Source of the DNA: Deltaproteobacteria bacterium HGW-Deltaproteobacteria-15
GTDB taxonomy: Bacteria > Desulfobacterota > DSM-4660 > Desulfatiglandales > HGW-15
Assembly: GCA_002840535.1 (NCBI GenBank)
Contig: PHBH01000048.1
Location: 41,707-105,706 of the forward strand
DNA: 64,000 bases
Direction of reading: 5' to 3'
Position 1 is the stretch's first letter. Each line of letters opens with the position of its first letter. The notes under the pieces are model-generated. The model saw only the letters and a list, made by a program, of their open reading frames with translations. It ran no database searches and was not told the DNA's origin. Both the position numbers and the translations under genes were made by a program. Shown piece after piece: positions 46,656 to 49,004 of this stretch.

Positions 46656-47243
46656 ATGAAAAATTCTGAACACACACAGAGGACCGACATAAAGTCGCCC
46701 ACCATAAAGACGATGATGATTCCCCTGAGCTTATGCGCCAGGGTGGAGGAGGGTGCAAACCTCCACGATGCGATCGCGGTGTTGTACGATACCCACACAA
46801 GGGATCTACAGAGCTCTTACAGGTCCAGGGCCATCCTGGTTTTCAACCGCGAGAATCGGATCGTCGGAAAAATCGATCCCCTTGATCTTATCGCAGGAGT
46901 GGAGGATGGATACAGGAGGATAGGGGATCTCAAGTCCATCTCCCATATGGGGTTCACACGGGAGTTCATGAAGATGATGATCGACAGCCACAGGCTGTGG
47001 CAGGATCCTTTAACGGACATTTGCAGGAAGGCAGCCAGCCGGAAGGTCGGAGATATCATGAGCAAACCCGGCCCTGAAGAATTCGTGGAGGAAGAGGACT
47101 CCCTCGCTGAGGCGATTCACCGGCTGGCACTGGGGCATCTCCCGTTCCTGATTGTGAAAAAGGACGAAAAGGTTACGGGAATTCTGCGGATGGACGACAT
47201 CTTCGGGAGGATCTGCGATGAAATCCGCAGATGCGAGCCGTGA
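46656..47243 (+). CDS. CBS-domain protein
   Basis: A 195-aa protein carrying a CBS pair: the first repeat at about 25-75 (ARVEEGANLHDAIAVLYDTHTRDLQSSYRSRAILVFNRENRIVGKIDPLDLIAG) and the second at about 125-190 (VGDIMSKPGPEEFVEEEDSLAEAIHRLALGHLPFLIVKKDEKVTGILRMDDIFG), separated by a helical insert. Likely binds nucleotide. It lies 112 bp after the S2P-CBS gene, same strand, and may work with it. No enzyme domain is attached. Its stop is followed by an AGTAAAC-type repeat. Confidence 0.9.
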   Translation: MKNSEHTQRTDIKSPTIKTMMIPLSLCARVEEGANLHDAIAVLYDTHTRDLQSSYRSRAILVFNRENRIVGKIDPLDLIAGVEDGYRRIGDLKSISHMGFTREFMKMMIDSHRLWQDPLTDICRKAASRKVGDIMSKPGPEEFVEEEDSLAEAIHRLALGHLPFLIVKKDEKVTGILRMDDIFGRICDEIRRCEP

Positions 47244-47251
47244 TTTAGGGA

Positions 47252-47284
47252 GAGTAAGCAGTAAACAGTAAGCAGTAAGCAGTT
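47252..47284. repeat. AGTAAGC-type heptamer array
   Basis: About four units of AGTAAGC/AGTAAAC (for example AGTAAGCAGTAAACAGTAAG) follow the CBS gene stop. The same unit occurs in the array at 39584. No facing copy is seen nearby, so it is probably a single-sided array. Confidence 0.75.
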
Positions 47285-47396
47285 CCGGAAAAGACAGAAT
47301 GGATCAACCCCCTCGCCTTTCAGCGTCCCAGCTTGGCTCAGCCGTGGAAAGGCAAGGGCAGAGAGCATAGCGCATAGCGAAGAGGCCCAGATGCAG

Positions 47397-47423
47397 GATG
47401 GGTAGAGCGCAGCGAAACCCATC
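47397..47423. repeat. REP-like palindrome (GATGGGT ... ACCCATC)
   Basis: Seven-base arms GATGGGT and ACCCATC flank a 13-base loop (AGAGCGCAGCGAA). This is a dispersed palindrome known in several proteobacterial lineages. It overlaps the end of the minus-strand reading frame at 47422. Confidence 0.7.
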
Positions 47424-47456
47424 AGCAGAGTTCGCGCAGTTCCAGTCTTGTAATCT

Positions 47457-47509
47457 GGAGCAAGTCCTCCTTGCGACTTAGCTTGTCCCAATCAGAAGAA
47501 ATCGCAACC
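47457..47509 (-). repeat. Short dispersed repeat, copy A
   Basis: On the minus strand GGTTGCGATTTCTTCTGAT (47491-47509) and, further on, GGAGGACTTGCTCC (47457-47470) recur, slightly changed, at 63886-63933 on the plus strand. It lies between the REP palindrome and the MITE-like element, inside a gap with no convincing gene. Confidence 0.6.
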
Positions 47510-47567
47510 AGGAGGTTCCTCCAGAGAGAAGGATACTCGCCCTCTACTTCCCCAGCCGCCTCCACAA

Positions 47568-47773
47568 CAGGTTGCTCAAAAATGCCCAGATGCAAGTTGT
47601 GCTTTCTCAATCCGGCTATTTGTGGCAGCGCCCGATGACGGGGACCCACCCGAAGGGGTGGGGAGTCCGTGGCCCTTGACGGACAAGTCTTGAGGAGTGA
47701 GGCGTACATTATAGTACGCCGCAACGACGAGGGACGAGGGCAACATAGCAGATGGGCGTTTTTCAGCAACCTG
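47568..47773. mobile_element. MITE-like element with 26-bp imperfect terminal inverted repeats
   Basis: The left end (47568-47593) reads CAGGTTGCTCAAAAATGCCC and the right end, read inward on the minus strand, CAGGTTGCTGAAAAACGCCC; over 26 bases about 22 match. The 206-bp interior encodes no transposase and carries a perfect palindrome-like site GGCGTAC-N6-GTACGCC (47701-47720). The right end lies one base after the treT stop codon. The ORF-track frame at 47422-47769 crosses it and is not a believable gene. A target-site duplication is not obvious. Confidence 0.6.
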
Positions 47774-47774
47774 C

Positions 47775-49004
47775 TTAATCCAAGAAGATCGTCCCGCGAG
47801 GCTTGTCCAGAGCCAGCAGCAGAAGCAGATATCTCTTGAGCTTCTTGGTAATCAGGAATTCGTTTCTCACGCGGCGCTTCCCGTTCTCACCAAGACGCAT
47901 TGCCAGCTCCGGCTGGTTGAGAAGCGATCGGATGGCAAGGCTTGCCCCTTCCACTGTATGAACCAGGAGGCCGGTGTGACCGTCGATGATCTGAGCCGGT
48001 ATTCCTCCCACGGCACCGCCGATGACCGGTCGACCCTTCCAGAGCGCCTCGGCAACCGTCAGGGCGAACCCCTCCTTCAATGATTTTTGAAGGATCACCT
48101 GGGATCCGCGTTGAAAGGCATTGATCTCCAGCGGAATCGAAGGACTGAAAAGAAGGATGTGAATGTCGGGGTCGTTCCCGGCTTCATTGCGGACAAGTTC
48201 GAGGATTTTGTCCGACTCAGGATCGTCGGCAGCCTTGTCGCCTACGAGAAGAAGTCTGCAATCCACATACTTTCTGGCCAGCTTGAAGGCTTGCACCACT
48301 CCCACAGGATCCTTCCAGGGATCATATCTCGAAATCTGGGTCACAACGGGTTTGTCTCTCGGAATGCCGTATTTTTCAAAAACCCCGTCGATGTAGGATT
48401 CTTCGAGGTCCCTGTTCTTGTCATCCAAAGGGTCAATGGCCGGAAAAAACTGATACTGGGGAATGGCCAGCTCGGGTGAGAAGAGAGGGGAAGTAAAAAT
48501 TGCAGCGTCGTACTTTTCAATGGTGGGCCTCAAGAACTGCCACAACTGCGCATTGGGACGGGAAAGATCGATGTGGCAGCGCCAGACCCATCGGTTCTTC
48601 ATGTTGCTCTTGTGAAGGATCATGGCCGCAGGCTGCGGATCATGGATGACGATCAGGTCTTCCTCAAATATGAACTCTTTCGCGTTCATCCGATTGACCG
48701 AGAGATATTTTTCGAACTCGTCCTCCGAGAAAATCTGGGCCTTTCCCTGGAGTCCGTTGTGAAAGCTCTTCGTGATCTCATAGAACGGCTCATCCCCCTT
48801 GATGACTTCCCACGACACCTTAACGCCGAGCTCATTCAAAAGGGGAACGATTCGATGCAGCATCTCCGCCACTCCACCACCCACTGCAGTGGAGTTGACC
48901 ATCTTGATGGTTCGCCCGCCCACGTGAGAGGCGAGGATGGTCAGTTCCTCGATCACATCCGGTCCCACCACTTCTCTGTAGTCAAACAGATTTGCACCGT
49001 CCAT
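47775..49004 (-). CDS. treT: Trehalose synthase, TreT-type GT4 glycosyltransferase
   Basis: Glycosyltransferase (409 aa) of the TreT family (trehalose glycosyltransferring synthase), making trehalose from NDP-glucose and glucose reversibly. The N-terminus has MVNSTAVGGGVAEMLHRIVPLLNELG and KGDEPFYEITKSFHNGLQG, the second lobe QISRYDPWKDPVGVVQAFKLARK and the nucleotide-sugar region LKEGFALTVAEALWKGRPVIGGAVGGIPAQI. ATG 49004 has AGGG five bases ahead. It is the last gene downstream of GlgE, TreS-Mak and GlgB, and its product would feed TreS. The gene is followed directly by a MITE-like element. Confidence 0.9.
   Translation of the reverse strand: MDGANLFDYREVVGPDVIEELTILASHVGGRTIKMVNSTAVGGGVAEMLHRIVPLLNELGVKVSWEVIKGDEPFYEITKSFHNGLQGKAQIFSEDEFEKYLSVNRMNAKEFIFEEDLIVIHDPQPAAMILHKSNMKNRWVWRCHIDLSRPNAQLWQFLRPTIEKYDAAIFTSPLFSPELAIPQYQFFPAIDPLDDKNRDLEESYIDGVFEKYGIPRDKPVVTQISRYDPWKDPVGVVQAFKLARKYVDCRLLLVGDKAADDPESDKILELVRNEAGNDPDIHILLFSPSIPLEINAFQRGSQVILQKSLKEGFALTVAEALWKGRPVIGGAVGGIPAQIIDGHTGLLVHTVEGASLAIRSLLNQPELAMRLGENGKRRVRNEFLITKKLKRYLLLLLALDKPRGTIFLD

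Follow-up and report, generated by a model that had tools for sequence, protein, structure and literature searches.

A repeat family with IS5-type ends and a conserved hairpin core, found beside the treT stop codon and in other genomes of the phylum

The short repeat that abuts the treT gene in our window (the whole stretch of 64,000 nucleotides analyzed here) is best explained as a MITE with a core that is kept folded, very likely mobilized in trans by a transposase of IS5 type (DUF772 and DDE). The preliminary description of this DNA had proposed a non-autonomous element mobilized in trans, and held that the lack of any other copy in the genome and of transposase ends matching its own would speak against it. 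Neither was the case, since we found many copies, a 4-bp duplication at their borders, and transposase genes with the same ends. The features of the region are as follows.

46656..47243, + strand: convergent left neighbor, which ends 324 bp from arm L
47568..47773, + strand: MITE copy as far as recognizable, from arm L to the right end R, long class of about 200 bp
47568..47593, + strand: arm L, internal third repeat CAGGTTGCTCAAAAA, with C at position 10
47597..47627, + strand: small hairpin with approximate boundaries, the first of two modules that the long class has and the 125-bp class lacks
47634..47684, + strand: hairpins with approximate boundaries, the second of these modules, likewise lacking in the 125-bp class
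47701..47720, + strand: apical hairpin GGCGTAC-N6-GTACGCC of the conserved core
47748..47773, + strand: right end R, whose reverse complement starts with CAGGTTGCTGAAAAA, as do the ends of IS5-type insertion sequences
47775..49004, - strand: treT-like glycosyltransferase, with its stop codon one base from the element

The repeat search returned a single inverted pair at the element, 47568-47593 with 47748-47773, i.e. two arms of 26 nt that are 85% complementary and 154 nt apart, which agrees with the match of about 22 out of 26 terminal bases given in the preliminary description. We also recovered the palindrome described there (GGCGTAC at 47701-47707, ATTATA at 47708-47713, and GTACGCC at 47714-47720) and the abutment on treT, where a single base (47774) separates the right end from the stop codon (47775-47777). 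A mechanical ORF of 115 aa (47422-47769, minus strand) runs across the element, and there is no convincing gene inside it. The interior can be regarded as non-coding, as had been claimed, and the element is short, non-coding, and multicopy, like other MITEs. The extent of 206 bp needs a partial correction: the right end is accurate, but the left boundary was drawn at arm L, which full-length relatives show to be an internal repeat. The best candidate for an outer left end of the window copy has 6 mismatches in 15 positions, which is no better than many random windows, and no target duplication can be recognized there, leaving the right end as the sole recognizable outer end of this copy. The repeat structure of the window copy exceeds what is expected by chance, given RNA fold z scores of -7.1 (+ strand) and -5.6 (- strand) relative to shuffled sequence and the presence of some 40 further places with BLAST matches in the same genome. 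Other repeat-like stretches (gtaagcagtaaacagtaagcagtaagcagt and cagatgcaggatgggtagagcgcagcgaaacccatca) are found between the left neighbor and the element, at 47250-47440.

Other copies are numerous, both in the host genome and in its relatives. A BLAST search with the element matched 65 pieces of its own genome. Of the copies there, 48 are delimited by both arms, and further ones were found with a covariance model trained on 22 own-genome copies of the 125-bp class, for a total of about 40 to 50 or more. Across the phylum, the covariance model identified the core of the element in 156 of 395 genomes, i.e. around 40% of those sampled. The named hosts of similar copies include Syntrophaceae, Smithella, Syntrophus, and other 'Deltaproteobacteria' assemblies, and searches of plasmids and phages gave no match to the element. 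The copies cluster by length at about 125, 150-172, and 198-206 bp, and the window copy is in the long class, with two extra small-hairpin modules.

Copies in genomes G197 and G378 carry a further repeat, R' (CAGGTTGCTGAAAAAC...), 25-29 bp left of arm L. Judging by sequence, the outer ends of full copies are R' and R, with the sequence CAGGYTGYTGAAAAA, and arm L is internal. Position 10 is usually C in the inner arm L, and G in R' and R. When the 66 copies with a recognizable R' were compared, 27 had identical 4-bp flanks (mean of 3.7 and maximum of 9 in 2000 shuffles), and flanks of other lengths were rarely identical. The duplicated bases mostly follow YTAR (CTAA, TTAG, CTAG, and TTAA). As is typical of MITEs, the family shows a target duplication, and an autonomous element has the same terminal inverted repeats.

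A transposase with these ends was found in viral contigs, searched for the combination of YTAR and the end sequence. In one of them (L338), two inverted CAGGTTGCTGAAAAA ends flank a 1.3-kb segment that contains an ORF of 377 aa, and there is a CTAG on both sides. NCBIfam assigns the product of this ORF to the IS5 family of transposases (NF033581, 291 bits for a cut-off of 140), and the protein has DUF772 and DDE_Tnp_1 domains and relatives in 46 of the 395 genomes of the phylum (E <= 1e-10). For four relatives from the same phylum (L352, L353, L354, and L356), the stretch retrieved contains both ends with zero mismatches, these elements being bounded by CAGGYTGYTGAAAAA and YTAR-like flanks, which are CTAG/CTAG for L356. 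A fifth one (L359) has two mismatches in its ends, several others show one such end, and the more remote relatives, which are probably IS1182-like (27-36% identity), lack these ends. The insertion sequences and the MITE have their ends in common, and perhaps a few adjacent bases, but the conserved core of the MITE is absent from the insertion sequences. We propose that the IS5-type transposase would recognize the outer 15-bp ends CAGGYTGYTGAAAAA and cut YTAR-like targets with a 4-bp stagger, and we infer from this shared sequence that it moved the copies described here. Transposases with the inverted repeats of the element are thus present in the viral contig and in genomes of the same phylum. 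None was found in the own genome, which gave no match to this transposase in the search of the phylum, and its copies therefore look orphaned of their mobilizer. The latter was presumably lost by the host or left out of its assembly, which may have skipped multicopy elements. Transposase and MITE show no clear co-occurrence, as the MITE is found in 21 of 46 genomes with a transposase match vs 135 of 349 without one, so that the link between the two rests on the ends and the target.

Several other candidate mobilizers were considered and rejected. IS701 was suspected from the 4-bp duplication, but its published ends (---YACT-Y) mismatch those of the element (PMC2266710). None of the loci fetched first contained a convincing autonomous element. 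Among nine element-rich genomes, five lack DDE_Tnp_1 genes, and those present in the others are devoid of these ends.

The copies have a marked position relative to genes. In the own genome, with neighbor genes called by a simple codon-usage finder instead of a standard gene caller, the distance from the right end to the stop is 0-2 nt for most right neighbors on the minus strand. When the right neighbor is on the plus strand the end is further away, commonly 10-30 nt before the start codon. In G197, 13 copies are at exactly 0 nt from a stop, and five left neighbors end 28 nt before L, which is about where R' begins. The target itself may account in a simple way for repeats located precisely at gene ends: YTAR holds TAA or TAG, so that an insertion at a stop would duplicate it and the gene would stay intact. 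Insertions inside genes would be lost by selection, and the survivors would be those against stop codons or between genes. We infer that this explains the abutment on stop codons. As for treT, its C-terminus is intact relative to homologues, and the element is not present in the 3' flank sequence read in these homologues. Their downstream neighborhoods are not syntenic with that of treT, and no strict empty site (syntenic and without the element) was found among them. Some loci (L051, L056, L060, L062, L063, L067, and L068) have solitary CAGGTTGCTGAAAAA copies, some of them mismatched, immediately 3' of stop codons. A few of these loci have element remnants, and they resemble decayed insertions.

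The core between L and R is predicted to fold into one long hairpin, paired on one strand. In a plain MAFFT alignment of 22 own-genome copies, with a structure derived from the same sequences, 97% of the pair cells are standard pairs. In this alignment, 16 pairs are altered on both sides, for a mean of 4.2 after shuffling and at most 3 when the structure is slid. Among 68 copies from other lineages, in an alignment fitted to the covariance model and hence leaning towards the structure, there are 217 G-T cells vs 38 A-C cells, 16 of which are at one doubtful pair. The ratio becomes 62 to 35 once the few pairs with common wobble are removed. This excess of G-T over A-C points to a fold that is maintained on one specific strand. 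The paired changes might also result from correction of one arm by the other, through template switching at quasi-palindromes, instead of selection on the fold. The arms do vary together within single copies (CGGG/CGGG, CAGGC/CAGGC, and AAGG/AAGG), as this would produce. Yet, two irregularities of the stem are conserved and were left uncorrected, namely the C.C mismatch at position 10 and a tandem G-A internal loop, and such correction alone would not predict the G-T excess. We regard arm-to-arm correction as unlikely to be the source of these changes.

A non-mobile structured RNA, or a family of bidirectional terminators, that functions at gene ends and was multiplied in some other way would account for the strong covariation, for the A5 and T5 tracts that flank the G+C-rich stem, and for the location at gene ends. 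It leaves unexplained the target duplication, the ends in common with insertion sequences, and the occurrence of copies in both orientations relative to flanking genes; moreover, a simple scan of the region gave no terminator-like site. We thus find it very improbable. We tentatively suggest, with somewhat more doubt than confidence, that the core, instead of being filler, is a structured RNA (or single-stranded DNA) module selected across the phylum and spread by transposon ends. If this were true, one mobile family would seed folded elements next to the stops of dozens of genes in each genome. Our best guess as to function, by analogy with what is described for ERIC, is that the hairpin, once transcribed, might act on read-through transcripts. 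No covariance model of Rfam matches the element.

The orientation of the copies is associated with replication in some genomes. In the complete genome G197, 84 of 103 hits have the orientation expected from a split at about 1.4 Mb (P 8e-11, Fisher test), and the folded strand is on the lagging side in 44 of the 54 copies examined, with origin and terminus inferred from weak local GC skew. This switch is independent of the strand of the flanking genes, since the folded strand is lagging in 18 of 24 cases where flanking tandem genes are on the leading strand and in 10 of 10 where they are on the lagging strand. Permutation tests in six genomes show that orientation follows the replichores in three (P = 0.0002 in G197, 0.0004 in G378, and 0.003 in G287), with no significant bias, for small counts, in G331, G098, and G101. 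The own-genome copies have no orientation bias by local GC skew, other-genome loci (L099-L147) being left out of this comparison. Transposases of many IS families were reported to interact with the beta sliding clamp (PMC4549789), and a similar interaction is a possible cause of the bias.

A palindrome of the REP or RAYT type, mobilized in the form of single-stranded DNA by a transposase of the Y1 (HUH) group, would also explain a hairpin with one-strand asymmetry and replication-linked orientation. The long imperfect hairpin with conserved mismatches, the G-T excess on one strand, the orientation by replichore in G197, G378, and G287, and the RAYT-like gene present in G197 and G378 are all in line with it. 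However, the 4-bp duplication is specific to each copy, the element-carrying genomes G283, G347, and G287 have no Y1 matches, the 30 stretches around Y1 genes contain one weak core match only, and the ends are those of a DDE-type insertion sequence instead. Considering these points, this origin seems highly improbable, and the IS5-type transposase remains our preferred mobilizer. A Y1/RAYT mobilizer found no support, the gene being neither flanked by the repeat nor consistently co-occurring with it. The RAYT-like (Y1) transposase genes of G197 and G378 (L154 and L155) are single genes unassociated with this repeat.

In kind, the element is an ERIC- or Correia-like MITE (PMC2229807, PMC10969869), whose unusual trait is a widely conserved fold on one strand. 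The ERIC or IRU sequences of enterobacteria (127 bp) are likewise intergenic, of similar length, present in dozens to hundreds of copies, and have terminal inverted repeats, a target duplication, and a transcript predicted as a long stem-loop (PMC2229807, PMC10969869). They differ from the element in sequence and in their ends, with TA at the termini as opposed to a 4-bp YTAR-like duplication and IS5-type ends, and are from a different phylum. The likeness, which lies in the long hairpin, is one of working principle; in the case of our element, the ends identify the mobilizer group. Correia or NEMIS elements of Neisseria are also MITEs with a long hairpin, inverted-repeat ends, and length classes, but their ends and their target (TA) are different, and RNase III processing has been reported for them. 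The nearest named MITE by host among those we met is Chunjie of Geobacter uraniireducens (Genetics 2008). As described in PMC10969869, to which our comparison is confined, it has conserved ends, direct repeats, a length of 178-235 bp, and an intergenic location. The MRSC-65-2 motif resembles the element by its single long stem with strong covariation, often in dozens of copies per genome and sometimes near transposases, but has a conserved UYCCGG repeat that is absent from the copies of the element (PMC11109978). IS5-family insertion sequences with NF033581, such as L338 and the four relatives with perfect ends, have the same 15-bp ends and YTAR-like flanks, but are 1.3 kb long, encode the transposase, and lack a conserved hairpin core. 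The 'multicopy nucleotide sequences' of Geobacter (PMC2700814, PMC2996986) were discarded, as the element is not described in the legends read.

We found no earlier description of the element among the open-licence papers searched. Our results account for an intergenic repeat family that is dispersed in the genomes of Syntrophales and of other members of the phylum, and tie it to a named transposase group. It is a testable proposal, based on the strand-specific covariation, that a selfish element places a conserved fold at the 3' ends of genes. Similar ends are also found around other interiors. G378 has a second MITE family (L292, L295, and L300), with TTAG flanks and a different interior (CAGGCTGTTGAAAAAcagcctgctaa...), and the viral contigs L323, L337, L346, and L348 carry MITEs, about 156-167 bp long, that share the ends of the element, have TTAA or CTAA flanks, and differ in their interiors.
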